Assembly: GCA_963971405.1 (NCBI GenBank) | Contig: OZ020492.1 | Span: 2,790,001 to 2,854,000, forward strand | Direction: 5' to 3' | From: Psococerastis gibbosa | Taxonomy: Eukaryota > Arthropoda > Insecta > Psocodea > Psocidae | DNA length: 64,000 nt | Shown: positions 27,576 through 56,274 of the stretch, one piece after another | How positions within the stretch are numbered: position 1 is the first letter of the stretch | Layout of the letters: each line of letters begins with the position of its first letter | Notes under the pieces: model-generated | Databases searched by the model: none | The model's input: only the letters and a program-made list of their open reading frames with translations | What the model was told of the DNA's origin: nothing | Program-made: the position numbers and the translations under genes

Positions 27576-27847
27576 CAGTGGCGTAAATAACACCCACGCA
27601 ACCCCCGCGGTGAGGGGGGGGGGGAGGGCAGCATTGCTGGGGCGCGCACTTCGGCTCCCAAAAATATTAATTTAATTTAAAAATCTACGTAATTAATAAA
27701 AATATTCTATTTCAACTTGTTATCCTTGTTGAGTATAATACCACTATTGACAATCAATCAAGAAAAGGATGAAATATGAGACAAGGTAGGGCGTACCAAA
27801 GGTCATGCTGGGGGGAGGGGGCGCAGCAGAAGTTCTATACGCCACTG
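27576..27847. mobile_element. hAT-like MITE with CAGTGGCGTA ends (unit A)
   Basis: 272 bp, CAGTGGCGTA...TACGCCACTG, flanked by TGGCTGTC and AGGCTGTC (27568-27575, 27848-27855). The same insertion sits at the same place in unit B (39702-39992), so it predates the duplication. Confidence 0.85.
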
Positions 27848-28244
27848 AGGCTGTCCTCTGCAACTGCATATATCCCTTTCTGAAGCATTATACACAGAGT
27901 ACAATAATGAAGGAAAGTCGAAACCAAAGCTTAACTTTCAAACGACAAGCAATAGCACTGCCATTTTAACTAACGTTAGAACAATAAATGCATACCCAAA
28001 TGAAGTTAATAGTTTTTATTATTATTCATCCCTAAATCAAGTTTAAAATAATAGAAAAAATGTTTAACCTCCCTTGTAAGCTAACACTCAGGTTAAGACA
28101 CGTTAGTCTTAATAAAGAACTTCGATAGCATAGTGGTAGCTTGTTCGTACTTCTGTGAGTCTCTACACATCATGGGATCGGTTACCTGTCGTAACTCAAT
28201 ACAGGTATTGCCTACAGAGGCGACTGAAGAGGTTATTCGGATAC

Positions 28245-28450
28245 ATTCATGTGATTTTTCTGCGGAACCTTTCTATCTATGATTTCTACCTTCAGGTATG
28301 TTGTAGGTGTTAAATAGAGTAACAAAACCGAAGAGGTTGCTTTCCCTAAAACGTATTTGGTTTTGTGAAAAATTTATTTTTTGAATCACGCTCCAATGCA
28401 TTGCGTGCCGTGCCATTTTACTGTGTGATAATGAATTGGTCTGCCCGTTC
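28245..28450 (-). mobile_element. CAGA-type repeat fragment holding an empty site
   Basis: Reverse-strand internal part of the CAGA element. At 28431-28438 the word ATGAATTG is single; in unit B the same word is duplicated around a hAT-like MITE. Confidence 0.6.
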
Positions 28451-29756: not shown

Positions 29757-30384
29757 CAACCTTATTTTTTGAAGTCTCCTTTTTTTTGCTATGGCTACCA
29801 CGTGCTTCTGACTTACGAGCACAGCTCTCACATAATCTTCTTCTTCTTCTTCTTCCGGCTCTACAGCCCTTGGTGGGCTTTGGCCTGCTCGACAACACTC
29901 CTCCATTCTTCTCGGTTTTGCACAACGCTCCACCATCTGGAGACTCCCAACTCGCGAAGGTCATTCTCTAACTCGTCCTTCCAGCGGTTTCTTGGCCGTC
30001 CTGGCAGTCGTCTTCCCGTCATGCTTGCTTTTCCACCATCTGGAGACTCCCAACTCCACCATCTGGAGACTTCCAACTCTCACATAATCCACCACTAACT
30101 GTAGCTTCAAGTCATGTTTCCGTAAAACTTTAAAATTTGATTCGAAAATGTAAAAATTGCCATTTAATTTTGATCAAAAATATATTCACTAAACTGAAGA
30201 GTCTCCTTATTGCCATGGCAACCACGTGCTTCTGACCTGCGGGCACAGCTCTCACATAATCCACGACTAGCTGTAGATTCAAGTCATGTTTCCGTAAAAT
30301 TTTAAAATTTGATTCGAAAATGGCCATTTAATTTTGATCAAAAATATGTTCATTAATCTGACGATTCTTATTTTAGTTCTGACA
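29757..30384 (+). promoter_or_regulatory. Duplicated 5' flank of SprT gene 1 with predicted splice acceptor
   Basis: A ~165-180-bp segment (from TGAAGAGTCTCC through CCACGTGCTTCTGAC and ATTTTGATCAAAAATAT) is present twice in tandem here, but only once upstream of gene 2 (44345-44520). The first copy is split by a retroposon at 29838-30076. The second copy ends in TTCTTATTTTAG (30365-30376) nine bases before the ATG, a good 3' splice-site match that is conserved in gene 2. A 5' UTR intron is therefore plausible; promoter activity is inferred only from position. Confidence 0.45.
29838..30076 (-). mobile_element. RTE-like non-LTR 3' fragment, 13-bp TSD
   Basis: 239-bp insertion flanked by CTCTCACATAATC at 29825-29837 and 30077-30089. 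On the reverse strand it encodes the ORF2 C-terminus (LPGRPRNRWKDELENDL, then REEWRSVVEQAKAHQGL stop) and ends in a (GAA)n tail at 29838. The 5' end carries two extra copies of a ~23-bp word present once in the body (29930, 30033, 30055). It separates the duplicated gene 1 flank. Confidence 0.85.
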
Positions 30385-32877
30385 ATGCCTATCTACTTGC
30401 AAAGGCTATGGAACAATAAGAGAAGGAGGAAACGTCCCAACAACAGTACTATATGGAAAAAATATGACCAACGATTATTCAAGAGCTGGACAGCCAAAAT
30501 AAGGAGAAGAAACAGAAAGAGACAGAAAGCTTGTGCTACGGCAGTTTACGGCTCAAGATGCAAAAAGTGTAACCAAATAGAATGTCAGTGTCCAGCCCCC
30601 CACCAAAAACATATACCTCGTTGTACATTCTTGGCGTCTCTTTCAGATGAAACACCAAATAATTTTATTCCCCACCCCGATGCACTTATTTATAAAGCGA
30701 ACTTTTCAACGACCAAAAACGAGCTTGTTGAGAAACTCTATAAATTGTATAACGCTGAAGTATTTGAAAACAAATTAGCAGCAGATATGAATATTACTTG
30801 GTCTGATATAACGGATGTTAGTGCAAACCGCACTGCAGGGTATTTTCTTGTAGATTTTTGTCTTGAGAACTCGGGGACTCGCACTGCGAAAATCTCGTTG
30901 TCGACCAAATTAATTGACCGCCCAGAGAGACTGAGGGATACTCTGTTGCATGAGATGTGCCATGCAGCGGCATGGATAACAGAAGGAGCATGGGGTCACG
31001 GCCCTGTATGGAGCGCTTATGTAGCACGAGCTCATAGCCGATTTCCCGACATTCCACCGGTAAGCGTTTACCACTCGTATATTGATGCAGTTACATTTCG
31101 AAGTGCAAAACCAACTTCTGTAGCCCACCCCGATGCACTTATTTCTAAATCAAACATTTCAACGACAAAACACGGGCTTGTTGAGAAACTCTTTAGATTG
31201 TTTAACGCTGAAGTATTTCAAAACAAATTACCAGCAGATATTAATATTATTTGGTGTGATAAGACTACTTCTCCTACGAACTGCAAGGCAAGTTACTGTC
31301 TTCCTAGTGGAAACGGGAAGATACGCAGTGCGCGAATTATATTGCCGACCCAATATATTGACCGTTTACAGAGACTGAGGTACAGTCTGTTGCATGGGAT
31401 GTGCCATGCTGCGGTATGGATAACAGAAGGAGTATGGGGTCACGGCCCTGAATTGAGCGCATATGCAGCGCGAGCTTATAGCCGATTTCCCGACATTCCA
31501 CCGGAAAGAGTTTACCACACGGCCTTTGATGCAGTTACACATCGAAGTACATTCCTGGCGCCACTTTCAGACACAGCAACACCAACTTTTGTAGCCCACC
31601 ACTATACACTTATTTCTAAACAACACTTTTCAACGATAAAACACGAGCTTGTTCGGATACTTTATAGATTGTTTAACGCTAAAGTATTTCAAAACAAATT
31701 ACCAGCAAATATGAATATTTCTTGGTCTGATGTGACGAATCATGCTACAATTGGTACAGACTGCACGGCAGGTAACTGTACTTTCAATGGAAACGGGAAG
31801 ACAAGAAGTGCGCGAATTATATTGCCAGCACAATATATTATCGGCCTAGAGAGATTGAGGATCAGTCTCTTGCAAGGGATGTGCCATGCTGCGATATGGA
31901 TATCAGAAGAAGCATGGGGTCACGGCCCTGAATTGTGCGAATGTGCACCGCGAGCTCATAGCCGATTTCCCCACATTCCATCGGAAAGAGTTTACCACAC
32001 AGCCCTTGATGCAGTTGCACATCGAAGTACATTCCTGGCGCCGCTCTCAGATGCAACACTAACTTCTGTTGCCCGCCCCGATGCACTTATTTCTACACAA
32101 TACTTTTCAACGATAAAACACGAGCTTGTTGAGAAACTCTTTAGTTTGTTTAACGCTGAAGTATTTCAAAACAAATTACCAACAGATATTAATATTACTT
32201 GGTCTGATATGACGTTTGATCCTACTTCTCGTACGAACTGCAAGGCAGGTTACTGTCTACCTAGTGGAAACGGGAAGATACGCAGTGCGCGAATTATATT
32301 GTCAACCCAATATATTGACCGCCCGGAGAGACTGAGGTATAGTCTGTTGCATGGAATGTGCCATGCTGCGGTATGGATAACAGAAGGTGCATGGCGTCAC
32401 GGCCCTAAATTGAGTGAATACGCAGCGCGAGCTCATAGCCGATTTCCGGACATTCCACCGGAAAGAGTTTACCACACGGCCCTTGATGCAGTTACACATC
32501 GAAGTACATTCCTGGCACCACTTTCAGATATAACACCAACTTCTACAGCCCACGACGATGCCCCTCCTTATAAAACGATTTCTTCAATGACAAAACACGC
32601 GCTAGTTCAGAAAATCTTTAGATTTTTTAACGCTGAATTATTTCAAAACAAATTACCAGCAGATATGCTTATCACTTGGTCTGATATGGCGCATGATCCT
32701 ACCCTTCTTACAAACCGCACGGCAGGTTTCTGTACTCCTTCGGAAAACGGGAAGACACGCAGTGCGCAAATTGTATTGTCGACCCAATATATTGACCACG
32801 CAGAGAGACTGAAGTATACTCTGTTGCATGTGATGTGCTATGCTGCGGTATGGATAACAGAAGGAGCACGGGAATAA
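30385..32877 (+). CDS. SprT gene 1: tandem SprT-like (GCNA-type) metalloprotease domain protein, 3'-truncated
   Basis: Uninterrupted 830-codon frame from ATG 30385 to TAA 32877. The N-terminus is very basic (RRRKR, RRRNRKRQK), a likely nuclear signal, followed by a Cys cluster CKKC....CQC at residues 59-69. Five ~150-residue repeats follow. Each has the SprT-family order: ELVEKLxxLxNAEVFxNKLPADM, ITWSD, a TAGYC-like motif, RSARIILS, RPERLR, then HExxH-like helix and GHGP, then RFPDIPP..VYH. Repeat 1 has H189-E190-M-C-H193 with third His at 205, the zinc protease set. Repeats 2-5 read HGMCH, QGMCH, HGMCH and HVMCY. The closest known family is GCNA, germline enzymes that remove DNA-protein crosslinks, but the C-terminal zinc ribbon and HMG box are absent. 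An alternative start ATG at 30346 would add a hydrophobic stretch, but gene 2 lacks that ATG and a splice acceptor lies between, so 30385 is preferred. The frame stops in repeat 5, and a sixth repeat lies beyond in broken frames. Function beyond domain family is unknown. Confidence 0.82.
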   Translation: MPIYLQRLWNNKRRRKRPNNSTIWKKYDQRLFKSWTAKIRRRNRKRQKACATAVYGSRCKKCNQIECQCPAPHQKHIPRCTFLASLSDETPNNFIPHPDALIYKANFSTTKNELVEKLYKLYNAEVFENKLAADMNITWSDITDVSANRTAGYFLVDFCLENSGTRTAKISLSTKLIDRPERLRDTLLHEMCHAAAWITEGAWGHGPVWSAYVARAHSRFPDIPPVSVYHSYIDAVTFRSAKPTSVAHPDALISKSNISTTKHGLVEKLFRLFNAEVFQNKLPADINIIWCDKTTSPTNCKASYCLPSGNGKIRSARIILPTQYIDRLQRLRYSLLHGMCHAAVWITEGVWGHGPELSAYAARAYSRFPDIPPERVYHTAFDAVTHRSTFLAPLSDTATPTFVAHHYTLISKQHFSTIKHELVRILYRLFNAKVFQNKLPANMNISWSDVTNHATIGTDCTAGNCTFNGNGKTRSARIILPAQYIIGLERLRISLLQGMCHAAIWISEEAWGHGPELCECAPRAHSRFPHIPSERVYHTALDAVAHRSTFLAPLSDATLTSVARPDALISTQYFSTIKHELVEKLFSLFNAEVFQNKLPTDINITWSDMTFDPTSRTNCKAGYCLPSGNGKIRSARIILSTQYIDRPERLRYSLLHGMCHAAVWITEGAWRHGPKLSEYAARAHSRFPDIPPERVYHTALDAVTHRSTFLAPLSDITPTSTAHDDAPPYKTISSMTKHALVQKIFRFFNAELFQNKLPADMLITWSDMAHDPTLLTNRTAGFCTPSENGKTRSAQIVLSTQYIDHAERLKYTLLHVMCYAAVWITEGARE

Positions 32878-33243
32878 GGCCCTAAATTGAGCGTATATGC
32901 AGCGCGAGCTTGTTGAGAAACTCTTTAAATTGCTTAACGCTGAAGTATTTCAAAACAAATTACTACCAGATATGAATATTACTTGGTCTGATGTGACGGA
33001 TGATCCTCGTTCAAACTGCAAGGCAGGTTACTGTATTTCTAGTGGAAACGGGGAGACATGCGAATTATATTGTCGACCCAAATTATTGACCGCCCAAAGA
33101 GACTGGGGGATACTCTATTGCGTCAGATGTGCTATGCCATGATATGGGTACTACAAAGAGAAAGTGGTGACTACCATGTATGGGACAAGTTTGCAGCGCT
33201 AACTAATAAGAAAGTACCCGAAATTTCACCAGTAGAGGATTGA
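30671..33243 (+). repeat. Coding minisatellite: SprT repeats of gene 1
   Basis: Units start at 30671, 31123, 31596, 32070 and 32548 (at the HPDALI-like words), with spacing 452-478 bp. A sixth, shortened unit starts near 32912. Units are highly similar at DNA level, consistent with unequal exchange or gene conversion. Confidence 0.85.
32878..33243 (+). pseudogene. Broken sixth SprT repeat of gene 1
   Basis: After the TAA, sequence from repeat 5 (GCAGCGCGAGCT) jumps straight to the start of the last repeat (TTGTTGAGAAACTC). This looks like a deletion between two CGAGCT words. The repeat continues KLFKLLNAEVFQNKL...NCKAGYC, shifts frame near 33050, and resumes RIILSTQIIDRPKRL, LLRQMCYAMIW, ending KKVPEISPVED stop at 33243. 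It corresponds to repeat 7 of gene 2 (both have RQMC and NCKAG). Confidence 0.8.
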
Positions 33244-33261
33244 GTTCCCACAATATCGCGT

Positions 33262-33349
33262 TGGAGCGTTGTACAAAACCGAGATGACTGGATGAGTGTT
33301 GTCGAGCAGGTCAAAGCCCAACAAGGGCTGTAGAGCCAAAAGAAGAAGG
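33262..33349 (+). mobile_element. Severely truncated RTE-like 3' end
   Basis: 88-bp fragment encoding the last residues of the same ORF2 as at 29838 (VVEQVKAQQGL stop), followed by GAAGAAG. The left junction shares TGGAGCGTT with the target. The matching place in unit B (48091-48102) is uninterrupted, so the insertion postdates the duplication. Confidence 0.75.
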
Positions 33350-34413
33350 AATGCATATTGTTATGTAAATCTTCGAAATCTTCCTCTCTGTCAGTAGCCT
33401 ATCTCCGCAAGATTGCCACTTTATATACAATACATCCCTCAGCATATATCGTTCCTTTATACTGTATTATTCTCATGATTTATATTTTTAAATATCCACA
33501 TACAAACTTCAATTCCTTTCTTTCAACCATGTTGCTGATTATTTTCAGGCTGCAAAAGTATAAGAACAAACCTTCCCACCCACGAACTGTTTGACGGGTA
33601 TTTTAAGATTAGATTTTTAATTATATTTGCGATTATTTATTATTTATATATTCTTTAGTATTTTTAGTGGATAGATCAAATAATATTTTTTTCTCGTATC
33701 TAATCCTACTATTCTTTATATCTTTATATTCTTTTATATCCGTTCCATGTCGCGATTAATTTTCCAATATCCGGCATTCTTATTCTTCTCATTCCAAATG
33801 GCGTCCGGCAGAAATATAAGCGTACGAATTTTGAACGAATTAATATAGTTAAATGTATTAAGTCCATTTTTCTCTAAGCTCTTCTAATTTACGTTAAATA
33901 ATGTTTCCTTCTACCTTCGGTGAGTCTATTCATCCTAATTGAAAGCTCTTCTGATCTTATAATCTTCCGATTTAATTGAAAATTGTTTCTAATCATACAC
34001 GTGCATTTCAGGATGAACCCAAAGCTTCTTCCCTGAAATGAGGCTGGCTTAAGTGCGGGCCATAAAAATGAAAGTTAAGAAGCTGTGATGCATTAATTAT
34101 TTAGAAAAGGATGGGCTGCCGACAGAGAGAGGGAAGTTACCATCGACATCGTGAGGTTAGACGAATAGTGAGGCCAGGGGACCCTCTCATGTAAATGTCT
34201 AGATATCGAAATATAATTATAATAATTAGGCTAAGACACTAGATTCTCCAAGATCTCACATTGTTTCGCTCTCCATATGTGAATGTCTCTGCACTTAAGT
34301 GTTATATTAGTAATAATATTGTACCTATGTAACACTATTTAGCTTGCCCTCTAGTTGAGTGTAAGGGCCCGAAGGCCCAACTCCGCTTGGGGAGCCTAGT
34401 ACAATAAAGAAAC

Positions 34414-34471
<58 letters not shown>

Positions 34472-35040
34472 AGTAGTGTAAATTTCTGTACATTAGGGCA
34501 ATGTATAAAATGTATATTTTTAAATTTAGTTTTCACTTTAAATAATTTCACCTTAGTAGCTTTTACACATTAAATAATTTCGCGAGAGTAATTCGCATAA
34601 ATCATATTTATATGTTTATACTGTAACTTTACTCTAACTTTATTCTGAATACAACTCCAATTTAAATTATCTAAATAATCTAATGGTCTAACCTTAATTG
34701 ACATAAACATTGCTGGTTAACTTACTACTCAGGAGATTCCCTTGTTCTCGTTAGTATTTGACCGCACATTTTGTTAATATTTAGTAGAGGACAAAAATAT
34801 TCGTGATACGTTCAAATTATTATTTAATATCGATGATTTCGCTAATTTTACATTATAATAAAATTATACATATACTCTGAATTCGTATTCTCCTTTCCAA
34901 GGTAAGGTTCCATTCGAATCAAGTGCAATGGATGGTCTGGTTGTATTTTTTCTAACAAGTCCCTCTCAATACCCGACGCGGTGCCCGGTGCGTTCAAGTG
35001 TGGTAATAAGCCCTCTTCCTAGAAGTGGTCCAATTACATG
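33350..35040. other. No gene; SINE tail and long ATT microsatellite
   Basis: AT-rich. A SINE 3' part (GTTGAGTGTAAGGGCC, ACTCCGCTTGG) lies at 34340-34410, followed by about 21 ATT units at 34411-34473. Nothing else recognised. Confidence 0.5.
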
Positions 35041-35670
35041 CATTAATTTGACACCACCTGAACAGTTGCGATGGCCAGTAATATCCCTTTATTTTTAAAA
35101 GGAATGTACAAAATAGTTGTGTGATATAATGTATGATAATGTACAAGAAATTTTTCTCTACCTATATTTTGTGCCTCCTTTTAACACAGTACTTAATCGT
35201 GGAATAGGTCTACTGGGGAAACCACGTAAAAAAAACGCGTCGGGTACACTACCTCTTGGGTGGCATGGAAGCGTAGAATCGGTAGTGTTGTCCTTCTTTT
35301 TTTCTTTTTCAAATTCTCCTTTATTCTTTTTCACCTCAAGGAGCAACTGACTGGTACAATTATTATGATAACTCAGTTGAACATTTCTCTTACTTTCTGA
35401 CACCTTATTTATACAATACTACGATCGAAATTACAAGTTAAATTTGATTTTTACATCCGAAGTCTTCCCTTTCTCCGGCTGTCTCTGACTGGTGCTTGTT
35501 AGCATATCTTGCCGCTGCTTGAACGTGGTAATGGGGCGGTGAGCGAGTACTCCCCCCCCCCCCCCCCCCCAATCATGATGCAGTACTCAGAGCTGAGCGC
35601 CTGGGGCCACAGCCCTTAGTATAGGAGATCCGAAGTAAGATCGACCTTCCCGATCTGTTTAATGGATGCA

Positions 35671-36395
35671 AATTGTTGCTTTCCAATTTATACGTAGTAT
35701 GAGGAAAGCTTTGTGATGGTCGAAATTTTCGATTCCGAGATTTCAACGGATTTACACGTTTTCAGGTCCCAGGAACCCAAAAAAGTGGTTTTTACGAAAT
35801 GTCTGTCTGTCTGTCTGTCTGTGCATCGATTTCCGGGCAAACTACTCGGTCGATTTTGATGAAATTCGGCATGTAGGTTCACAAAAATCATACCTCGAGA
35901 CCGTTTTTTTTTTATTTGGGGCTAACTCAATTTGGGGGTTTCATTCTCAAAAAACTCCAAAAAACGTCAAAAAAAATTATTTCTCAAAAACGGCTCCAAC
36001 GATTTCTTTTAAATTCACATATATTCTAGTCGTTCTTAATGTTGATAAAATGCGGGGGGTCGCTTACCCCTTGATAGTTTGCTTCTGGGGGTAAAAAAAT
36101 AAAAATAACTTAATTTTAATGAAAAATGACTAAAAAATAATATTTCTGCGAAACTTTTCTATCGATGATTTCTACCTTCAGGCATGTTTTAGGTGTTAAG
36201 TTGAGTAACGCAACCGGACAATTGGCTTTCCCGAAAACCTATTTGCTTTTGCGCAAATTTTTTTTTTTTTTAATGATAGAAACTTCACGCTGAAATGCAT
36301 TGCCTGCCTGCCATTATTACTGTGTTGTAATGTGTTTTAAATATATTGAGGTTACCTCACCTCCAGTGACGTCAGGTGGACACCCCCCCCCCCTA
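35671..36395 (-). mobile_element. CAGA-type dispersed repeat, reverse copy
   Basis: Starts with TTGCTTTCCAATTTATACG at 35671 and ends at a poly-C run next to GTGACGTCAGGTGG. It lacks the 5' ~100 bases. Very similar to 25265-26108 in inverse. Confidence 0.75.
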
Positions 36396-36399
36396 CTAC

Positions 36400-36807
36400 T
36401 TTGCATATAGTAACTGTTAAGTAACTATATTATATAGTAACTAGTTAAGTTAGCTGCCATAATTAATAATATCTAACAATTAACCATTAATTTTAAAGTC
36501 GAAGTTCCAGAATTTAAAAATATAGCCTAAACGTAAAACCTATAGGTAGGTATGCTATGATCACAGTCTAGTTCATACTGGTTGCATTTAGGCTTATAAT
36601 AACGTTTAAGGACCATGAAAAGCTATTGATAAAAATGAGTGCTGGAGGTTTTACTTTTAGGCTATATTTTTAAATTCAGGAACTAGTACCTAAGTTGTAC
36701 ACCTTCCTCGTTGGAGGGGTAGAGCCAATTGGACCTAGTCATCCTGTCACATGCGCAGTAACAATGATTCAGGCCAGCATTTAAGTTTTCGTATGGCGGC
36801 GTACTGT
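36400..36807 (+). mobile_element. Half of the CGAAAACTTAAATGC fold-back element
   Basis: Matches the right arm of 24105-24950 through GCCAGCATTTAAGTTTTCG at 36773-36791; no left arm present. Confidence 0.6.
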
Positions 36808-37484
36808 AGTCGACATTCTTTAAAAAATAGTAGTCCACTTATGCTTAGCATACTATATAAAAAAAAAACAACAAAGTCTCCTGTCCAGTTTAATTTATAA
36901 CATCCTTGCTTACTGCGTAGTTCAACAGCACTAAATTTATTATTAATAATTAATGAACAACTAAATTGTTTACCTGAAAAAATTTAATAACTTATGATAA
37001 TAATTAAATTTGAACCGGTTCTAGTTGATTCAAACATGGTGGCCAGAAAAATATCGCGTTTCTTTTACTTGAGTAATAATTTTTCTTAATTTCCTTCAAA
37101 AGTCCATTCTATCTAGTATAAAACGATTTCTCTCGGGGAGGGGGGGGGGTCGTCCGCCCCCCAAGGATCCGTCCCTGACGGATATATACTAAATAAACAC
37201 AAACAAAACTCAAGAGTAAGGCATGGAGAGTCCACGAGCATGCGCACTCAGCACTGATCCAAATGAATGTGGTAACACAGACAGCCACCAGGGCTGCCGT
37301 TCTCCGTTGTAACGGAATTCCGGGATTTTTTTAATGTTACGAAATTTTTCCAGGCATATCATTTTACGGGATTATCCCGGGAATTTCGCCGCAATATGAA
37401 AATTGCGCTAAACGAGTCAGCGCCGCAAATTTAAAAAAAAAAGAAAAGGAAAATGACGTTAGCCTAACCTACAAAATGTGTTTT

Positions 37485-37629
37485 TAAGGCACAGATTCCA
37501 CCAACGTCAATAGTGATATTAAATGTTTTTTGACGTGGCAGCAGACATTTTTAGGCTGTCTAAAAGTGTCTGCTACCACGTCAAAAAACATTTAATATCA
37601 CTATTGACATTGGTGGAATCAGCGCCTAA
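37485..37629. mobile_element. 145-bp palindromic MITE
   Basis: Nearly perfect palindrome with ~62-base arms, a ~19-base centre and TAAGGC/GCCTAA ends. It shares GACGTGGYAGCAGACA and ATTCCACC with the 393-bp MITE at 15438, as a minimal derivative would. Confidence 0.7.
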
Positions 37630-38260
37630 GACAAAATGCAGTAATTTCAGAATACTTCAGGTAGTAACCAACGTACAATTACTCCAAAATAATAGCCTAA
37701 CAATATTTTTAAGACATGCTGATACTGGTGAATTCTCGAAATTTGATTGAAACATAGTAAAATTGACTTAACGTTTTTAGTTATCAATGATATTAGTGAA
37801 GCCGAAGTTTTATACTGTCTTGTGGCAGTACCTATAGGCAGCAAATGTTCGCAAGGCGCGTTAAAGTTAATAATAGTTTTAGCTGTATTTATTTGTGAGC
37901 GTTAAGGAAAATATTAGTAGGCCTAGATGAAATTAACAAAAACATTTTTAGGCAAAAAATTAGTTTCCTCACTGGAGTCAGGAGTGAGTAGGCTATCTGT
38001 TGGTAGTGTGGACAAGGAGGGGATGTATGTGCATGGTAGGGCGAGAACTAAAATCTGACTATTATAATACTCATGTAGGAAAATAAACTAAAAAATTGTA
38101 ATAGTGTGAAACCTGAACTGAGAATTGAAATAGGCTATAAAAGTGGAACAATACTGTATACACAGGCGGACGCAGCGACCGGCTCAGCGGGTAATCGCCC
38201 CCCCCCCCCCCTTTGGACAAGAGTTATATTCTTTGCCTATAAAGTATAAGTATATAAGTC

Positions 38261-38455
38261 GGGACATGTAGAGTAGTGGTACGGACTCTGACTTTCACGC
38301 GAAAGGTTGTTGGTTCGAGTCGTACACTTCCTACATTTTCTGGCAATGCTTCGGAGGGCATGTAAAGCAGGCTATCCTATAGTTGAGTGTAAGAGAGGGC
38401 TTTATAGCCCTAACTCCTCTAGGTTGGCTTAGTAATAGAAGAAAAAGTCCTTATT
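38261..38455 (+). mobile_element. tRNA-derived SINE copy
   Basis: A-box-like TAGAGTAGTGGTACGG, B box GGTTCGAGTC, shared body, and tail TTATTTAAG. Well preserved. Confidence 0.75.
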
Positions 38456-38810
38456 TAAGTATTACTACACTCAAAATTCGTATAATGCCACTATTTCAGC
38501 CCTATTTTTCAAAAATGTTCACCCGGGGGAGAACCCCGGGCCACCCTTGTTCACAATTATATATTAGGTACTTCCCTGTAACAAAACCTTATTACTCTCA
38601 AAATGCGTAAAACGCCACTATTTCAGCCCTATTTTTCAAAGAAATTCACCCCGGGGGTCCCCCTTCTTTACAAAATTAGCCTATATTAACTCCCTGTAAG
38701 GTATATAAATTGTCTCTATGTTACTGTGATCAAAATGCGTAAAATCAAACTATTTCAGGTCTTTTCTATCTAAACTTCTCCCCCGTGGGAGACCCCCCCC
38801 CCCCCTTTAT
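38455..38810 (-). repeat. Minisatellite, inverse of 26330-26700
   Basis: About three units of ~120 bp with AAAATGCGTAAAA, CTATTTCAG and CCCCGGGG blocks. Confidence 0.55.
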
Positions 38811-39701
38811 GTGACTGCATGTATATAGCATCCATGTTGAGGGTTTCCGCACAACAACTAGATTATTCCGGGAATTTTCTGGGAAGGATTACGGGATTAT
38901 GAAAACGATGAAACAGCAGCCCTGAACACAAACCGATCGATCATCAACTCGTCCGCTCAGGCGCTCTATGCAAGCAAAAAAAAAAAAAAAAAAATACTAC
39001 TAAAAAGGCAGTTGTAAAGAATACAGTTACTCATTAGTTATTGACATAGACATATATAAATAAATATATAATACAACGGGAAATGTGATACAAATATGCA
39101 ATGAAGATAAAAGTGCAAATTTCTACTTGAATCATGAATTTGAATAAGATTATCGCCTATGTTTAGCTTATAATAATGCCTAGTTACGCATCCAGTTTAT
39201 ACAAAACATCCCTTTCATCAGTTTCATCTAGGGTATAAAATTAAAAATGGCGATTTCAGGATTTCTGTTTTTTGCAAAAGATTTACGCCGCTGATGATTT
39301 AATTTGGCTAAATGTAACTTTGTAATTTGGTTATATTTTTCACCAGGTGGTAAGTTTTGGTTTCTATTCACATCCTAGGCCATAGTTCCATTTAGAATTT
39401 GTTGTTTGGATATTGGATTTGTTGGATTAAAATGCATAACCTCTAATGACGCTTTGAGTCCAGGATAACTAAAAGTCGTAATGCTGCTGCGAAATGGAAA
39501 ATATCAATAAATCTAGCACTATTTCTATTTAATATTGTAATTCTATATTGATGCATGATTGCAGCATGATCATAATTAATTAATGAAACTAAATTTATAA
39601 AATTAAAATATATCTAGAAATACTCCATTCTTTAATTCATTATTCTATATAACCATCTTGGTCATCACAGTAACGCGACTTACCGCATTCCACAGACTGT
39701 C

Positions 39702-39992
39702 CAGTGGCGTAAATAATACCCATGCGACTCCCGCCCGCGGCGGGGGGGGGGGGGGGGGGCAGCGTTGCTGGGGGGCGCACTTCGGCTCCCAAAAATAATA
39801 ATTTAATTTTGAATTTTGAAATCTACATAATCAATAAAAATATTCAATATGATAGGCTATATGATACCACTATTGACCATCAATAATAAAATAGATGAAA
39901 TAATGAGACAAGGTAGGGTGCACCAAAGGTCTTGTGTGTAGGAGGGGGGGGGGCGCATCAGAAGTTATTTACGGCACTGAGTTACGCCACTG
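39702..39992. mobile_element. hAT-like MITE with CAGTGGCGTA ends (unit B)
   Basis: 291 bp, orthologous to 27576-27847. Flanks are AGACTGTC and AGGCTGTC. The two copies differ in G-run length. Confidence 0.85.
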
Positions 39993-40045
39993 AGGCTGTC
40001 CTCTGCATAACATCTCTTCCCCTTTCTGAAGCATTATACATACAG

Positions 40046-40259
40046 TCAGGACCTGTAGAATAGTGGTACAGACTATGACTTTCACCAGAAAGGTTGTTGG
40101 TTCGAGTCCCACACTGGCAACATTTTCTGGCCATGCTTCGGAGGGTATGTATTGTAGGCGGTCCCGGGTCATCCTAGTTGAGTGTAAAAGAGGGCTTTAT
40201 AGCCGTAACTCCGCTAGGTTGGCTTAGTATTAGGACAACAAAAAGTCACGATTTAAATT
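40046..40259 (+). mobile_element. tRNA-derived SINE, absent from unit A
   Basis: Full SINE with A and B boxes (TAGAATAGTGGTACAG, GGTTCGAGTCCC). TACAG flanks it on both sides. The corresponding place in unit A (27889-27903) is uninterrupted, so the SINE inserted after the duplication. Confidence 0.8.
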
Positions 40260-40689
40260 TACAGTACAATAATGAATTAAGGAAGGTCGAAACCAAAGCT
40301 TAACTTTGAAACGACAAGCAATAGCACTGTCATTGTAACTAATGTTAGAATGATAAAATATATATACCTAAATGAAGTTTAATAGTCTTTATTATTCATC
40401 CCTAAATTATGTTTTAAAAGGTATAAAAAATGCTAGGAAAATGGAAATTCAAACGTTGACACCCTCTCTTTGATGTAGCCTAGAGAAAAAATAAACATTA
40501 TTGTCAAAAATAGCACCTTTTCAAAATTCAACAATTTCTTGGTGCAGTCAGCAATCATTTCATCTGAGCGAACATGTGAAAATAGCACAATGATTTTTTT
40601 TATCTTCTACAACGTTGCGCAAGAAACGATATTTTATATCGGTATATTTGGTTCTACTATTTAAAATCTCGCTTTTTGATAAACATTTT

Positions 40690-40880
40690 AAGCATAGGCT
40701 TGTTTGGTTTCAGTCAATGATACGTAACTTACTGGAAGACCATTTTGTAATAAGACAGCACCCAGGCCATTTTTAGATGCGGCGGGCGCACTGAAATACT
40801 GAATAATCACTTCATTTTCAGGATCAAAATATTTTAAGATAGGGGTATCCCAGTTGATGTTGTAGGATGACCTTCAGTTG
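40690..40880 (-). pseudogene. Ty3/Gypsy RNase H fragment
   Basis: On the reverse strand a frame reads TPILKYFDPENEV, then SKNGLGAVLLQNGLPVSYVS, then TETKQAYA. This is the start of the Ty3/Gypsy RNase H domain with the usual first Asp region eroded. A stop follows. Decayed fragment only. Confidence 0.65.
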
Positions 40881-41089
40881 AAGTGCTTTATAACTCCGAC
40901 CCGCAGTATGACCGGAAACCGGAAATACAATTTTTAGAATTACATATCCGCCACGGTATTCTAAAATTATGGGAGGGGTAATTATGTACAGCGTACTGAC
41001 CACGAACGAGCAACATGGGAAACGTTGAGGAGGTACTCAAGCGATTCTCATCAGCCTATGAGCATATTATTTTAACACGGGACTAGAAT

Positions 41090-41257
41090 CAATGGCGGAT
41101 CCACGGGAGGGGGGGGGGTAATGCCCCCTCCTAAATGAGTAAATTCTTAAGATACCTAGTAAAAAAAAAGAATGAAACTCAACTTTTCAACAAAAAATGA
41201 CCTTTTAAACAACTTGTGACCCCCCCCCCCCTAAATTTTCTGCTGGATCCGCCCTTG
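41090..41257. mobile_element. hAT-like MITE, perfect 8-bp TSD ACTAGAAT
   Basis: 168-bp element, CAATGGCGGATCCAC...GGATCCGCCCTTG, with ACTAGAAT at 41082-41089 and 41258-41265, and G and C runs inside. Confidence 0.85.
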
Positions 41258-41439
41258 ACTAGAATGCCGACCTCCAAAGAGACACCGTGGACACAAAACT
41301 AATAAAAGATTGTTTTGATTGGGGAAGCTATCAATGACAGTGCATTTGACACATTCATTGAAAACAGAAAGTTTTTTTTTTGTCGTCGGCGATGGGGAGC
41401 CATCAGCCACTAAAATGCGACATTAATCCGGTTCACTCA

Positions 41440-41690
41440 TAAATACTTATTTTACTGATGTATGATGTATGATGGGCATTCCAATATGATATGCTGTAGG
41501 GTTTCAGTTGACCCCGGACAAGTGTCGCACATGCCACTGGGGTCCCTACATATCTTCCACAAGTACCTCTTTGTGACCCCATGGCCACTTCTCGGTCTTG
41601 TAATGGTCGTATAAAATTTTTTAGTGAGTGGTGACTGGTAACCTTTAAACCAGGAAGTATGTACCGAAAATGATATAATATAGGGATTGG
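41440..41690 (-). pseudogene. Non-LTR ORF2 C-terminal Cys-rich fragment
   Basis: Reverse strand shows RSGHGVTKRYLWKICRDPSG, then MCDTCPG, then LQHIILECPSY. This is the CxxC...H...C motif that follows the RT or RNase H in R1/LOA/I-like elements. Fragment only. Confidence 0.65.
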
Positions 41691-41749
41691 CAGCATTTTA
41701 ATGAGGGTTGTATGGGTCGGGTGGAAATTTTTGGGTGGGATGGGACCTT

Positions 41750-42130
41750 AGCCCTACAGTTGGTGGATGGAAAGGCCTTTACAGAAAAAGTTCAGAAACT
41801 TTTTGATAACTGTATCCCATTACGGTAGGCACGTATTACTTAACCGGCAGCTCCATGGATGACGCAAAGAATAAAGGAATTAAGGAAAAGGAGGGACATT
41901 TGGCTGGGAAAATACAATAAGTATATGAATCTGACACCTATAATACCGAGTGAGCCAAAGCCCGTAATCGAGCAAAACAAGTAATTAGAATTGAAAATAA
42001 GAAGCGATAAGTTATGCACAAAATATGGCAATATAATATGTGTGGTAAACAAGGCTGTGACTTCTTTAAAAAATGGATACAGTAAGCAAACGAATGATGT
42101 CAATGTAACAGAATGTTTGCCATGAGACAC
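41750..42130 (+). pseudogene. Non-LTR ORF2 linker fragment
   Basis: Forward strand: VQKLFDNCIPLR, stop codons, then PWMTQRIKELRKRRDIWLGK. This matches the endonuclease-to-RT linker of LINE ORF2 (PW-T-I--L---R). Inactive. Confidence 0.5.
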
Positions 42131-42247
42131 GTTATATAATTGTTTTGGGGGGTCCTTAACTAGGCAGCTTAAAACAGCAACTATATGAACCGTATAAATG
42201 GCGGGGGTTCCTTACTCGCCCCATTTGTTGGTTCATCAATGCGTATG

Positions 42248-43675
42248 TTGCTTTCCAATTTATTCGCAGTATTAATAAGGAAAGTTTTGTCATGTTCAAA
42301 ATTTTCAATTCCGAAATTTCAACGGATTTACACGCTTTGAGGTCCCTGGAACTCAAAAAATTAGAAATGTCTTTTTGTCGCTGTCCGTTCTTCGATTTCC
42401 GGACAATTACTCGATCGATTTTAATAAAACTTGGCATGTCGGTGCAGAAAAGTCATACCTCCGGAAAAAGATATTTTAACTTGGGGTAATTCTATTTTGG
42501 GAGGTGTTTCTCTCAAAAAACTAAAAAAAAGTCTAAAAAAATTATTTCTGAAAAACGGCTCGTACGATTTATTTAAAATTGACATACATTGTAGTCTTTA
42601 TTAATGTTAACAAAATGTGGTGGGTCGCTTGCCCCTTGATAGTCTCCTTCAAGGGGTAAAAAATAAAAATAAGTCAGTTTTCATGAAAAATTACTAAAAA
42701 TTAATGTTTCTGTAGAACCTTTCTATCGATGATTTCTACCTTCAGGTATGTTTTAGGTGTTAAATAGAGTAACAACGAAACCGATCAGGTTGCTTTCCCA
42801 AAAACGTATTTGGTTTTGTTTGCAAAAATATATTTTTTGATAGAATTATATATAATGCACGCTCTAATACATAGCATGTCGTGCCATTTTACTATGTGGT
42901 AATGAATTGCAGAGGCGTAAAGTTTTAGAATGATGGCGGGGGCAAAACTAAGTAGACCTTATGACGCCATCAGGCAGGATTTAAGGAAAAATTGAAAATA
43001 TAAGAGCAAAATGGTAGGGTTTTACGCATTTTAATAGTTGTTATGTATAGCTGTAGAATTTACAAAGCTAAAAAGGAATGCTTATATTCATATTGCTGCA
43101 AAGGGGACCTTGAAGTATGAATCACGTGAAGTTGGACCGTGCCCCCCCCCCCAACTTTACGCCCCTGGCAGGACTGGACATAACTGAACTAAGTACCCGT
43201 CGACAAGGTCACTATACCATTGCGGTACGGTATAGAATTCAATCATATGGGAGGGAACGACATTAGCTCCCTGAAGTTTTGGAGGCACCTGCCATGTCTT
43301 TATCGTCTCTCTGGACTGGTCGGAGAGGACTGGGGGGGGGGGGGGGCAAGTTGGACAGTGCCACCCCCCCCCCCCCCAACACTACGCCCCTAGTGAATTG
43401 GTCTGTCCGTTCCATAATATCCAATGCCATCGATTAATTCAGTGCTTCGGGAGGGGGGCCGTAGCCCCCGAAACGTTTACAGCGTACACTAGATGGAATG
43501 GAGTTTCAAGTATTTTTTATATTAAAGGTTACCTCACCTACAGTGACGTCACATGGACCCCCCCCCCCCCCCCCGAGGGATCCGAAATTTAATTTACTAT
43601 GAAATAACTCATTATCGCTATCTACTAATTGATAAATTGGAAAGCATGTTCGAGTAAACTCGGACCGGTTCTTTC
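42248..43675 (-). mobile_element. CAGA-type dispersed repeat interrupted by a hAT-like MITE
   Basis: Reverse copy in two parts, 42248-42909 and 43393-43675, ending GGACCGGTTCTTT. The insert is the MITE described next. Confidence 0.7.
42910..43392. mobile_element. hAT-like MITE with empty site in unit A
   Basis: 483 bp, CAGAGGCGTAAAG... to ...CTACGCCCCTA, flanked by ATGAATTG (42902-42909) and GTGAATTG (43393-43400). Unit A has a single ATGAATTG at 28431-28438. A second internal CAACTTTACGCCCCTGG near 43155 suggests two related elements side by side. Confidence 0.85.
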
Positions 43676-44219
43676 AATTGGTCTGAATGCTACTGGTATT
43701 CGCCAAGCGGGACAGCCCAAAGTCGTTGCGTCCTGCCTCACTGGTATTAGTCGTAACTAGCATGTTACAACAAGCATAAAATCACTTTTTGTTGAATTAT
43801 CACCGATGTGTTTACAAATAATTTTTGCACTAGCCATTAGTACTAAGCCTATAGATTATGAAAACGTAGGGTTGCCTATATTTTTCTTGGCCAGACATAG
43901 GGTTGCCAGGGTTTAAACAGGTACTAAAAATATATAACCTGCTTGGTTAATGGATAAATTAAACATAGAAATAAGTGCTGTTTTTTTTTTTTTTTTTTTG
44001 CGAATACGATGATATAGGCTAGGGTTGCCTGCCAAAATCCTGTCCAGAATGAGGGTTGCCGAATTTTAAAAAATGAAATTGTGAACGTACGACAAAGAGA
44101 TCCGAGAGTATGTCTCGTGCGATATACCAAGACTCAGTTTTCTAGCTGCTGGTGGCTCAAATCCTGGAAGTGATATTTATTAATTACTAGAGTTTGAAAT
44201 TTCATTGGGTATTACATAG

Positions 44220-44336
44220 TGGTTTTTATTTTTTCTCTCAAAATCCGATTCCATCTTGTATCAAACCATTTCATTTGGGAGTGGGGGGGGGGGGGTTGAA
44301 CCCCCATGAACCCTCCCCCCATTGGGTACGGCCTTG
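44220..44336. mobile_element. hAT-like MITE end upstream of SprT gene 2
   Basis: Contains CTCTCAAAATCCGATTC, a poly-G run and the end TACGGCCTTG. Related ends occur at 48280-48410 and 50255-50350. Absent from the equivalent place in unit A (~29750). Confidence 0.5.
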
Positions 44337-44339
44337 ACC

Positions 44340-44544
44340 ATAATCAACCTTATTTGCTGAAGAGTCTCTTTTTTGCCATGGCTACCACGTGCTTCTGACC
44401 TACGAGCACAGCCCTCACATAAACTGTAAGTTCAAGCCATGTTTCCGTAAAAATTTAAAATTTCATTCGAAAATGTGAAATTGCCATTTAATTTTGATCA
44501 AAAATATATTCACTAATCTGACGATTCTTATTTTAGTTCTGACA
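44340..44544 (+). promoter_or_regulatory. 5' flank of SprT gene 2 with predicted splice acceptor
   Basis: A single copy of the segment that is duplicated upstream of gene 1. It ends in TTCTTATTTTAG just before TTCTGACA-ATG. Conservation between paralogues supports functional importance, either of the acceptor or of the 5' UTR. Confidence 0.4.
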
Positions 44545-47500
44545 ATGCCTAACTACAAGAAGAGGCAAAGGAACAATAAAGACAAAAGGAAACGTACGAA
44601 CAACAGGAATACACAGAAAAGAAATCAGCCACGTTTTTCTTCTTTTCACTTCTTCGCCAAGGTCTGTAGAGCCAGAATATGGAGAACAATTTATAGATGC
44701 TGCTTGACGAAAAGGAAACGATGTGACAGAAAAAGACAGAAAGCTAGTGCTACGGCAGTTCACGGTTCAAGATTCAAAAAGGGCAATCAAATAGAATGTC
44801 AGTGTGCAGCCCCCCACCAAAAGCATTTACTTCGTAGTACATTCCTGGCGTCTCTTTCAGATAAAACACCAACTTTTATGGCCCACCCCGATGCTCTTAT
44901 TTATAAAACTAACTTTTCAACGACCAAAAACGAGCTTGTTGAGAAACTCTATAAATTGTATAACGCTGAAGTATTTCAAAACAAATTACCAGCAAATATG
45001 AATATTACATGGACTGATATAACGGATGTTAGTGCTTATCGCACCGCAGGTCTTTTTCGTGGAGGTACTAATCCTGATAACTCGGGGACTCGCACTGGAA
45101 AAATCTCGTTGTCGACCATATTAGTTAACCGCGCAGAGAGGCTGAGGGATACTCTGTTGCATGAGATGTGTCATGCAGGGGCATGGATAATAGAAGGTGC
45201 ATGGGGTCACGGCCCTGAATGGAATGCGTATGTAGCGCGAGCTCATAGCCGATTTCCCGACATTCCACCGGTAAGCGTTTACCACACGTACGATGATGCA
45301 GTTACATTTCGAACACCAACTTCTGTACCCCACCCCGATGCACTTATTTCTAAAACAAACTATCCAACGAAGAAACACGAGCTTCTTGAGAAATTCTTTA
45401 GATTGTTTAACGCTGAAGTATTTCAAAACAAATTGCCAGCAGATATTAATATTACGTGGTCTGATATGATTTATGATCCTACTTCAGGTACAAACTGCAA
45501 GGCAGGTTACTGTATTCCTAGTGGAAATGGCAAGACACGCAGTGCGGGAATTGTATTGTCGACCCAATATAATGACCGACCAGAGAGACTGAGGTACAGT
45601 CTGTTGCATGGGATGTGCCATGCTGCGATATGGATAACAGGAGAATGGGGTCACAGCCCTAAATTGAGCGAATATGCAGCGCGAGCTCATAGCCGATTTC
45701 CCGACATTCCACCAGAAACAGTTTACCACACGGCGCTTGATACAGTTACCCGTCGAATTACAATCCTGGCGCCACTTCCAGATATAACACCAACTTCTAT
45801 AGCCCACCCCGATGTGCTTATTTATAAAAAGAACTTTTCAACGACAAAACACTGGCTTGCTGAGAAACTCTTTAACCTGTTTAACTCTGAAGTATTTCAA
45901 AACAAATTACCAGCAGATATGAATATAACTTGGTCTGACAAGACGGATGATCCTCGTTCAGACTGCAAGGCAGGTTACTGTATGCCTAGTGGAAACGGGA
46001 AGATACGCAGTGCGCGAATTATATTGTCGATGCGATATATTGACCGGCCAGAGAGACTGAAATATAGTCTGTTGCATGGGATGTGCCGTGCTGCGGCATG
46101 GATAACAGAAGGAGTATGGGGTCACGGCCCTGAATTGAATGCATATGCAGCGCGAGCCCATAGCCGATTTCCCGACATTCCACCGGGAAGCCTTTACCAC
46201 ACGTACGATGATGCAGTAATATTTCGAAGTACAACACCAACTTCTGCAGCCCACCCCGATGCACTTATTTCTAAACCAAACTTTTCAACGACGAAACACA
46301 AACTTGTTGAGAAACTCTATACTTTGTTTAACGCTGAAGTATTTCAAAACAAATTACCAGCTGATATTGTTATTTCTTGGTCTGACATGACGTTTGATCC
46401 TACTTCTCGTACAAACTGCAAGGCAGGTTACTGTATTCCTAGTGGAAACGGGAAGACACGCAGTGCGCGAATTATGTTGTCGACCCCGTATAATGACCGG
46501 CCAGAGAGACTGAGGTACAGTTTGTTGCATGGGATGTGCCATGCTGCGGCATGGATAACCGAAGGAGTGTGGGGTGAAGGCCCTGAATTGAGCGCATATG
46601 CAACGCGAGCTTATAGCCGATTTCCCGACATTCCACCGGAAAGAGTTTACCACACGGCCCTTGACGCAGTTACGCATCGAAGTACATTCCTGGTGCCACT
46701 TTTGGATATATCACCAACTTTTATATTAAATACCGATGCGCCTATTTATAAAATGGACTTTTTAATGTCAAAACACGGGCTGGCTGAGAAACTTTTTAGA
46801 TTGTTTAACGCTGAAGTATTTCAAAACAAATTGCCATCAGATATGCTTATCACTTGGTCAGATATGACTTGTGATCTGACTCTTCGTACAAACCACACGG
46901 CAGGTTACTGTATTCCTACTGGAAACGGGAAGCCACGCAATGCGCAAATTGTATTGTCAACCCAATATGTTGACCGCCCAGAGAGACTGGGGTATACTCT
47001 GATGCATGTGATGTGCCATGCTGCGGCTTGGATAACAGATGGAGTGAAGGGTGAAGGCCCTGAATTAAGCGCATATATAGAGCGAGCTCATAGCCGATTT
47101 TCCGAAATTTCACCGGAAAGAGTTTACCCCTCGGTCCTTGATGCAGTTACACATCGATGTACATTCCTGGCATCGCTATCAGATACAACACCAGCTTCTG
47201 CAGCCCACCCCGATGCGTTTATTTATAAAGCGAACTTTTCAACGACAAAACACGAGCTTCTTGAGAAACTCTTTACATTGTTTAACGCTGAAGTTTTTCA
47301 AAACAAATTACCAGCGGATATTAATATTACGTGGTCTGATATGATTAATGAACCTTCTTCACGTAGAAACTGCACGGCAGGTTTCTGTATTCCTTGTAGA
47401 AACGGGGAGACACGCAGTGCGCAAATTGTATTGTCGACCCCATATAATGACCGCCCAGAGAGACTGGGGTATAGTCTGTTGCATATGATGTCCTATGCTG

Positions 47501-48012
47501 CGGCATGGATAACAGAAGGAGTCAGGGGTGAAGGTGAATTGAGTGCATATGAAGCGCGAGCTTATAGCCGATTTTCCGACATTCCACCGGAAAGATTTTA
47601 CCAAACTTACATCGATGCTGTTACACATCGATGTACATTCCTGGCGTCGCTTTCAGATGCAACACCTACTTCTGTAGCCCACCCCGATGCCCTTATTTAC
47701 AAAACGAACTTTTCAACGACACAATTCGATCTTCTTGAGAAACTCTTTGAATTTTTTAACGCTGTAGTATTTCAAAACAAATTTCCGGCAGATATGAATA
47801 TTACTTGGTGTGATATGATAGATGATCCTCGTTCAAACTGCAAGGCAGGTCATTGTATTTTTATTGGAAACTGGGACACATGCAGCCCGCGAATTGTACT
47901 GTCGACCCAATATATTGACCGCCCAGAGAGACTGAGGGATGTTCTATTGCGTCAGATGTGCCATGCAGCGTTATGGGCAATACCAAATGGAAGTGGTGAC
48001 TACTATGCATAG
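44545..48012 (+). CDS. SprT gene 2: tandem SprT-like (GCNA-type) metalloprotease domain protein, seven repeats
   Basis: Uninterrupted 1155-codon frame from ATG 44545 to TAG 48012. The N-terminus is basic (KRKRTNNR, TKRKRCDRKRQK). The Cys cluster of gene 1 is partly lost (FKKG....CQC). Seven repeats of 148-159 residues follow. Repeat 1 keeps H206-E207-M-C-H210 and His 222, so it can bind zinc and act as a protease. Repeats 2-7 read HGMCH, HGMCR, HGMCH, HVMCH, HMMSY and RQMCH; the third ligand is lost in repeats 4-6 (GEG). The fold-determining parts (KLPADM.ITWSD, KAGYC, RPERLR, RFPDIPP) stay well conserved in the inactive repeats. Typical SprT proteins (Spartan, SprT, GCNA) have one such domain. 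There is no zinc ribbon. The coding region is a single exon, which suggests a retrocopy origin followed by internal amplification. The TAG at 48010 appears premature: the same frame continues with KLPEIPTVEDYIHAISRWSV to TAG at 48100, matching the tail of gene 1. Confidence 0.85.
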   Translation: MPNYKKRQRNNKDKRKRTNNRNTQKRNQPRFSSFHFFAKVCRARIWRTIYRCCLTKRKRCDRKRQKASATAVHGSRFKKGNQIECQCAAPHQKHLLRSTFLASLSDKTPTFMAHPDALIYKTNFSTTKNELVEKLYKLYNAEVFQNKLPANMNITWTDITDVSAYRTAGLFRGGTNPDNSGTRTGKISLSTILVNRAERLRDTLLHEMCHAGAWIIEGAWGHGPEWNAYVARAHSRFPDIPPVSVYHTYDDAVTFRTPTSVPHPDALISKTNYPTKKHELLEKFFRLFNAEVFQNKLPADINITWSDMIYDPTSGTNCKAGYCIPSGNGKTRSAGIVLSTQYNDRPERLRYSLLHGMCHAAIWITGEWGHSPKLSEYAARAHSRFPDIPPETVYHTALDTVTRRITILAPLPDITPTSIAHPDVLIYKKNFSTTKHWLAEKLFNLFNSEVFQNKLPADMNITWSDKTDDPRSDCKAGYCMPSGNGKIRSARIILSMRYIDRPERLKYSLLHGMCRAAAWITEGVWGHGPELNAYAARAHSRFPDIPPGSLYHTYDDAVIFRSTTPTSAAHPDALISKPNFSTTKHKLVEKLYTLFNAEVFQNKLPADIVISWSDMTFDPTSRTNCKAGYCIPSGNGKTRSARIMLSTPYNDRPERLRYSLLHGMCHAAAWITEGVWGEGPELSAYATRAYSRFPDIPPERVYHTALDAVTHRSTFLVPLLDISPTFILNTDAPIYKMDFLMSKHGLAEKLFRLFNAEVFQNKLPSDMLITWSDMTCDLTLRTNHTAGYCIPTGNGKPRNAQIVLSTQYVDRPERLGYTLMHVMCHAAAWITDGVKGEGPELSAYIERAHSRFSEISPERVYPSVLDAVTHRCTFLASLSDTTPASAAHPDAFIYKANFSTTKHELLEKLFTLFNAEVFQNKLPADINITWSDMINEPSSRRNCTAGFCIPCRNGETRSAQIVLSTPYNDRPERLGYSLLHMMSYAAAWITEGVRGEGELSAYEARAYSRFSDIPPERFYQTYIDAVTHRCTFLASLSDATPTSVAHPDALIYKTNFSTTQFDLLEKLFEFFNAVVFQNKFPADMNITWCDMIDDPRSNCKAGHCIFIGNWDTCSPRIVLSTQYIDRPERLRDVLLRQMCHAALWAIPNGSGDYYA
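44881..48012 (+). repeat. Coding minisatellite: SprT repeats of gene 2
   Basis: Unit starts at about 44881, 45329, 45802, 46251, 46729, 47203 and 47679. Lengths are 448, 473, 449, 478, 474, 476 and a partial of 334 bp. The length variation reflects the linker between domains. Confidence 0.88.
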
Positions 48013-48407
48013 GGAAGATTTTCAGCACTACCTAATAAGAAACTTCCAGAAATTCCAACAGTAGAAGATTATATTCACGCAATATCGCGTTGGAGCGTTT
48101 AGTCTAGTCATTTCGTGCTAAAAAATGAGGTTACCCGGGATGTTTTCCGGGAGTTTTGAAAATAGGTGATTTTATTGATTTGCATGTGCTCCTAAGAATT
48201 CCAACTTTGCCCCCGTATTTTTTTCGGGGGGGGGGGGGGAAGGGGGGGTTTCAGAAATTTCCTTTGATATTAGATAGTAGTTGCTATTTTTCCTCTCAAA
48301 ATCCGATTCTATCTAGTGTCAAGCCATTCCATTTCGGGGGGGGGGGGGGGAGGGGGGTTGAGTTTGAACGCCCATGAACCCCCCCCCCCCTTGGCTAGGA
48401 CATTGCC

Positions 48408-52609: not shown

Positions 52610-52638
52610 TTATAAATAATTAGATTACTCGTGACTTC

Positions 52639-56263: not shown

Positions 56264-56274
56264 TGGTTCGTACC

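Follow-up and report, generated by a model that had tools for sequence, protein, structure and literature searches.

Two paralogous genes in a 64-kb window of the genome of the insect Psococerastis gibbosa (contig OZ020492.1, positions 2,790,001 to 2,854,000; GC 39%, eukaryotic-type) carry tandem arrays of SprT-like protease domains in which only the first domain keeps an intact active site. Both genes lie on the + strand in direct orientation, about 14 kb apart, and each consists of one long unbroken frame of repeats of ~150-159 amino acids, with a DNA unit of 477 nt. An earlier note, made from the letters of this window alone, had described two paralogous genes of tandem ~150-residue SprT repeats, and the frames and their orientation bear this out. 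The array, its fold family, the loss of the catalytic Glu, the open frames and a constrained core all come directly from computation. Taken together, the intact heads, the absence of the Glu from all tail units, the constrained core and the frames that stay open fit one active protease with a retained pseudo-protease tail. The reading we favor, tentatively and at a little less than an even chance, is that the protein derives from GCNA and joins one protease head, probably active, to a pseudo-protease tail that selection maintains and that may serve as an anchor.

Intact heads and Glu-less tails

Twelve repeat units were counted in the two open frames, excluding the remnant past the stop of gene 1. 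The hidden Markov model check of each repeat, proposed beforehand, places all twelve in the SprT family: every unit scores above the curated cut-off of the Pfam profile PF10263 (25.6 bits), with 25.8-67.1 bits and E-values of 1e-5 to 1.5e-18, and the weakest (gene 2 repeat 6) clears it by only 0.2 bits. This assignment is further supported by an AlphaFold model of gene 1 repeat 1, built with the 12 units as alignment (mean predicted local distance difference test score, pLDDT, 70.3; predicted template modeling score 0.66). Among the 124 PDB matches listed for this model by Foldseek at E≤10, two fall at E≤0.001, and both are human SPRTN (6mdx, E 5.8e-5; 6mdw, E 8.4e-5). The next best fold matches, the minigluzincins selecase and abylysin (4qhi and 4jiu), are weak (E 0.028 and 0.052) and are single-domain archaeal proteins, unlike the arrays described here. 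Other candidates were set aside as repeat-summed or chance matches. These were SIX1_SD, PaO, Peptidase_M50B and other Pfam families below their own cut-offs, an NCBIfam match of 13.4 bits against a cut-off of 300, and a PADLOC match to Csn2 (E 2.1e-4 in gene 2) for which no stretch passes alone.

The active site separates repeat 1 from the rest. A full SprT signature had been attributed to every repeat, but HExxH with the third His is present in two of the twelve units only, repeat 1 of each gene, where both copies read HEMCH...GHGP and remain intact despite 11% nucleotide divergence. In all ten later units the catalytic Glu is missing, replaced by G in six, V in two, M in one and Q in one. 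The first His is kept in 8/10 tail units, the second in 7/10 and the third in 5/9 of those with a letter there; gene 1 repeats 2 and 4 and gene 2 repeat 2 are the only three of the ten that retain all three. Codons at the Glu position of the tail are GGG/GGA, GTG, ATG and CAG, and because these differ, and because gene 2 repeat 7 falls outside the other tail units in the DNA tree (support 83), at least two separate losses from GAG are suggested. Head and tail differ beyond the active site as well, since 18 of the 118 columns identical in both heads, that of the Glu included, are never matched in the tail. In zebrafish Acrc the matching Glu is needed for function, and the E451A form fails to rescue, according to the part of PMC13092972 consulted; by analogy, the tail units would be expected to be catalytically dead.

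Selection on the tail and competing readings

Codon models give a mean dN/dS (omega) of 0.93 over the repeats; values of 0.8 and 1.1 lie within 1.92 log-likelihood units (lnL) of the best, and 0.7 and 1.2 lie outside. Such a mean also suits the main rival to our reading, slow decay, in which young duplicates with an array from unequal crossing-over lose catalytic residues because nothing maintains them. Two observations argue against decay. The ten uninterrupted repeats contain no stop codon, whereas 1000 neutral simulations gave a mean of 26.4 and a minimum of 5. When only terminal branches are considered, 6.4 stops are expected in gene 2 repeats 2 to 6, and none of 2000 simulations is stop-free; for gene 1 repeats 2 to 4, 3.9 are expected and 2.2% of simulations are stop-free. 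In addition, the site-class model M1a is preferred over M0 (twice the lnL difference, 2ΔlnL, 33.7) and puts 21% of sites in a class of omega 0.11; none of 47 stop-free null simulations at omega 1 is as extreme (maximum 3.2), though part of the constraint on this fifth of sites could predate a recent loss of function. The intact HExxH and third His of both diverged heads likewise speak against decay. In its favor are the stop, the frame changes and the joined-on remnant of gene 1, the stop that ends gene 2 within repeat 7, the abundance of retroelement frames and repeats in the window, and the apparent loss of the tail Glu on two or more separate occasions (judging from GGG and CAG codons and from the DNA tree). 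With gene 1 already broken and the final repeat of gene 2 cut by a stop, decay has to be taken seriously as a rival, one that we consider somewhat unlikely.

Several further results weigh against a selected tail and are gathered here. The mean omega is indistinguishable from 1 and, taken alone, looks neutral. Constraint on repeat 1 does not significantly exceed that on the remaining repeats (omega 0.81 vs 0.95, lnL gain 0.1). The frame of gene 1 breaks off after repeat 5 and that of gene 2 within repeat 7, and no poly(A) signal was found within ~1.5 kb of either gene's stop. The two-repeat structure prediction proposed in the earlier note does show the same helix-strand order twice, but its mean pLDDT of 48.1 denotes low confidence and makes the model too poor for a structure search. 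In further branch tests, gene 1 tail tips do not differ from the other branches (omega 0.94 vs 0.93), and gene 2 tail tips reach 0.72 vs 1.15 with an lnL gain of 2.1, as one of three uncorrected tests.

A weak signal, the only sign of diversifying selection, is present at a subset of sites. M2a is preferred over M1a (2ΔlnL 6.6) and assigns an omega of 2.1 to 18% of sites, and none of the 47 null simulations reached this value (maximum 4.45); only six sites exceed a posterior of 0.7, and recombination among repeats may inflate the signal. This pattern is what would be expected if dead SprT domains diversified in a genetic conflict, as decoys that imitate a partner of genuine GCNA or Spartan or titrate it away, possibly in the germ line. 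A scaffold or decoy for protein-DNA crosslinks and a germline-conflict gene were the candidate roles named in the earlier note. A protein that has shed the Glu but still has its fold core meets the needs of a decoy, and the copies are more alike in the 5' flank (92.3%) than in the coding blocks (79.6-89.0%), with the N-terminal coding part diverging more than the flank (56/330 vs 14/181 differences, Fisher p 0.003). Divergence of the flank is, however, not significantly different from that of repeat 1 (p 0.24), and a decoy would have no need of an active head, yet both heads are intact. Given also the small number of sites and a recombination effect that can mimic their signal, we regard a decoy as quite unlikely.

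Returning to the favored reading, a protease with a retained tail, we propose the following series of events. Two paralogous genes would derive from a SprT metalloprotease of GCNA/ACRC type whose protease domain multiplied within one exon, through unequal crossing-over or slippage. Repeat 1 would remain an intact, probably active zinc protease, and the later repeats would keep the SprT fold core while being catalytically dead, all without the Glu and most without one or more zinc ligands. Selection would hold the frame open through the tail, with translation in vivo presumed; if so, it follows that the tail is made as protein and is functional. The tail may then work as a series of SprT modules without catalysis, each adding its own weak contacts with partners, substrate proteins or DNA; jointly with the basic N-terminus it might hold the single active head at chromatin, which would imply a nuclear site. 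Multivalent anchoring at chromatin is favored because the N-terminus is strongly basic and because GCNA of the fly has a function independent of HE: in the text of PMC13092972 that we draw on, an HE>AA mutant rescued egg hatching and did not rescue double-stranded DNA breaks, so that GCNA can act without catalysis. A more far-reaching version, in which a crosslink-type protease carries a fast-diversifying dead tail as anchor or genetic-conflict decoy and represents the first multi-domain SprT pseudo-protease array, seems to us unlikely.

Relation to known SprT proteins and history of the arrays

The units share with GCNA/ACRC a SprT-like minigluzincin domain. The active-site helix of repeat 1 reads LRDTLLHEMCHAA, and 12 of 13 residues are alike by eye in zebrafish Acrc (LRDTLIH-EMCHAA), whose letters were taken from primers printed in PMC13092972 (LRDTLIH, and AMCHAA with Ala at the mutated Glu). 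SPRTN reads LVETLLHEMIHAY at the same place, with nine of 13 residues like repeat 1 by eye, and has HEMIH where repeat 1 of both genes has HEMCH. The second and third His are spaced by 12 here, by 13 in both zebrafish and human ACRC (from positions given in the portion of PMC13092972 used) and by 15 in SPRTN. Over these 13 residues, compared by eye, the helix points to a closer relation to GCNA/ACRC than to Spartan, in agreement with the designation GCNA-type in the earlier note. Spartan provides the best fold matches and a phmmer match (E 0.0004), and no GCNA chain occurs among the phmmer matches. A pattern for the PIP-like motif, a feature of SPRTN, has no match in either frame.

In other respects the genes depart from GCNA/ACRC. 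Excerpts of PMC13092972 describe ACRC as having one-to-one orthologues throughout the animals, those of invertebrates that were examined there carrying a SprT-like domain, and as made of four domains, namely an intrinsically disordered region (IDR), a zinc finger, an HMG box and one SprT-like domain; an excerpt of PMC5098910 describes GCNA, Wss1 and Spartan as IDR-bearing proteases. Unlike this single SprT-like domain, the genes here have five and seven units, one truncated in each case, a basic N-terminus, and an active site in the first unit only. No Pfam match to a zinc finger or HMG box was found in 12 read-through + strand frames beside the genes, in a scan that also missed the SprT remnant at 32905-33270 and is thus insensitive to short pieces. 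As to the acidic disordered region of GCNA/ACRC, acidic + strand frames (at least 28 amino acids, more than 20% D/E) are absent from 14000-30384 and 33300-44500, and one of 64 amino acids lies at 48982.

Single-domain relatives were found in bacteria and viruses. With the 12-repeat alignment as query, none of 127 pattern stretches in viral contigs and none of 52 in genome contigs was related, and repeat 1 with its lead-in found no relatives in phages. The repeat-1 helix as query gave 5/19 and 3/69 related stretches, all single-domain by eye. A similar HExxH helix thus occurs at eight bacterial and viral loci, in short frames with one domain each by eye, unlike the arrays here; their intact Glu is no independent evidence because the search patterns contained HEM. 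SprT-family proteases of DNA-protein crosslinks are described with one SprT-like domain in the parts of PMC13092972 and PMC5098910 at hand, and the new polymeric SprT architecture suggested in the earlier note holds in so far as no multi-SprT protein appears among the matches listed in open-licence PMC full text, which leaves absence from print unproven. It does not hold as a polymer of full proteases, as each gene has one intact head followed by Glu-less copies and the 3' end of gene 1 is broken. Text matches to 'multiple SprT' and 'tandem SprT' in PMC9240642 are actually starts of the word 'SPRTN', and PMC5552708 deals with viral SprT-like genes. Similar arrays may lie unnoticed in annotated eukaryotic genomes in databases. 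An array with an open frame whose later copies are all Glu-less would allow a direct test of a non-catalytic role of the SprT fold, at which the fly HE>AA mutant hints in the passages cited above. It would also offer a clear example from nature of a protease building its own pseudo-protease tail.

The DNA tree of the repeats pairs repeat 1 of one gene with repeat 1 of the other (support 100), 5 with 5 (92) and, weakly, 4 with 4 (59). A head-plus-tail array therefore predates the gene duplication. No such pairing by position is seen for repeats 2 and 3, in keeping with gene conversion or turnover at a later stage, and the idea that the common ancestor already had seven repeats is supported in part only. 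A tree rooted with bacterial and viral outgroups only, drawn from six of the eight loci (all but L006 and L007), separates head from tail at its root; support is modest, at 87 for the two heads and 61 for the tail. The best match of the gene 1 remnant at 32905 is repeat 7 of gene 2 (47727-48099; 82.0% identical over 373 columns), which suggests that a deletion in gene 1 joined repeat 5 to repeat 7; at the active-site position the remnant reads RQMCY.

Gene structure and neighborhood

The features of both genes are collected in the table. Repeat counts of six and seven had been given. Seven stands for gene 2, the last being truncated, whereas gene 1 has four complete repeats and a truncated fifth before its stop at 32875-32877, and its 'sixth' is the broken remnant. 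Nor does gene 2 extend to 48102 as had been thought, since a stop at 48010-48012 closes its frame within repeat 7. Of the two genes, the second is more likely to be the working copy; the 3' end of gene 1 is lost. DNA similarity between the paralogues spans ~30194-33270 and 44357-48099. Their N-termini are 64% identical, with no Pfam family at E≤1 in either basic region, and the 92.3% identity of the 5' flanks extends over 181 aligned bases. Compared side by side, both genes share the ATG context, placed after the acceptor-like TTCTTATTTTAG, and the flank may serve as a splice acceptor or promoter.

Table. Positions in the window of the two SprT-like genes and their parts
Feature	Positions	Strand	Description
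5' flank, gene 1, shared with gene 2	30194..30384	+	ends in acceptor-like TTCTTATTTTAG, with ACAATGCC around start codon
Gene 1 open frame	30385..32877	+	830 aa: basic N-terminus, 4 complete SprT repeats, truncated 5th
Gene 1 basic N-terminal region	30385..30717	+	111 aa, 26 K/R vs 5 D/E, pI 10.6
Gene 1 repeat 1	30718..31170	+	HEMCH and GHGP intact; PF10263 67.1 bits; fold matches 6mdx/6mdw
Gene 1 repeat 2	31171..31641	+	HGMCH, Glu to Gly, three His kept
Gene 1 repeat 3	31642..32118	+	QGMCH
Gene 1 repeat 4	32119..32595	+	HGMCH, three His kept
Gene 1 repeat 5	32596..32877	+	HVMCY, truncated by stop
Gene 1 broken remnant, repeat-7-type	32905..33270	+	past stop; stops and frame changes; other frame
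5' flank, gene 2, shared with gene 1	44357..44544	+	
Gene 2 open frame	44545..48012	+	1155 aa: basic N-terminus, 7 SprT repeats, last truncated
Gene 2 basic N-terminal region	44545..44928	+	128 aa, 34 K/R vs 5 D/E, pI 11.3
Gene 2 repeat 1	44929..45375	+	HEMCH and GHGP intact; PF10263 61.9 bits
Gene 2 repeat 2	45376..45849	+	HGMCH, three His kept (GHSP)
Gene 2 repeat 3	45850..46296	+	HGMCR; C-terminal part and linker resemble repeat 1
Gene 2 repeat 4	46297..46773	+	HGMCH, third His lost (GEGP)
Gene 2 repeat 5	46774..47250	+	HVMCH, third His lost (GEGP)
Gene 2 repeat 6	47251..47724	+	HMMSY, third His lost; PF10263 25.8 bits, just above cut-off
Gene 2 repeat 7	47725..48012	+	RQMCH, truncated by stop; PF10263 30.7 bits

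Inverted copies of a short 87-base element (29846-29932 and 33262-33348, 90.8% identical) lie on either side of gene 1, the downstream one directly after the gene 1 remnant; this copy appears to resemble the 3' end of a long interspersed nuclear element. Such copies, and flanks full of repeat families and reverse-transcriptase frames, would suit genes that belong not to the host but to a mobile element, as its cargo or dispersed by it. This we consider very unlikely, given that the 87-base element is matched around gene 1 only and not gene 2, that a scan of + strand stretches next to the genes revealed neither a transposase nor an integrase domain, and that homology between the copies is limited to ~30194-33270.

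Farther out, a glycosyltransferase family 92 (GT92) frame at 16240-16851 (+, 203 amino acids, E 2.6e-32) probably represents a host-gene exon. Non-LTR (long terminal repeat) retroelements are present as reverse-transcriptase and endonuclease frames at 12550-13590 (-), 52953-55877 (+) and 58600-59706 (+). The second of these apparently interrupts the frames 52014-52619 and 56248-57733 (+), among which there is a DUF1759 match and which presumably belong to a BEL/Pao retroelement. A repeat family of ~0.7-0.9 kb has at least seven copies in both orientations (1205-2061, 5405-6153, 11172-12085, 21437-22010, 25265-26111, 35673-36393 and 42248-42903), and the copies at 25382-26110 and 35673-36393 are 96% identical. 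Self-inverted (palindromic) elements like miniature inverted-repeat transposable elements or foldback elements are found at 2894-3286, 6876-7706, 8678-8845, 15438-15831 and 24100-24943. Long G runs are also present, one of 25 G at 5430-5454 and others at approximately 48228-48245 and 48337-48355.

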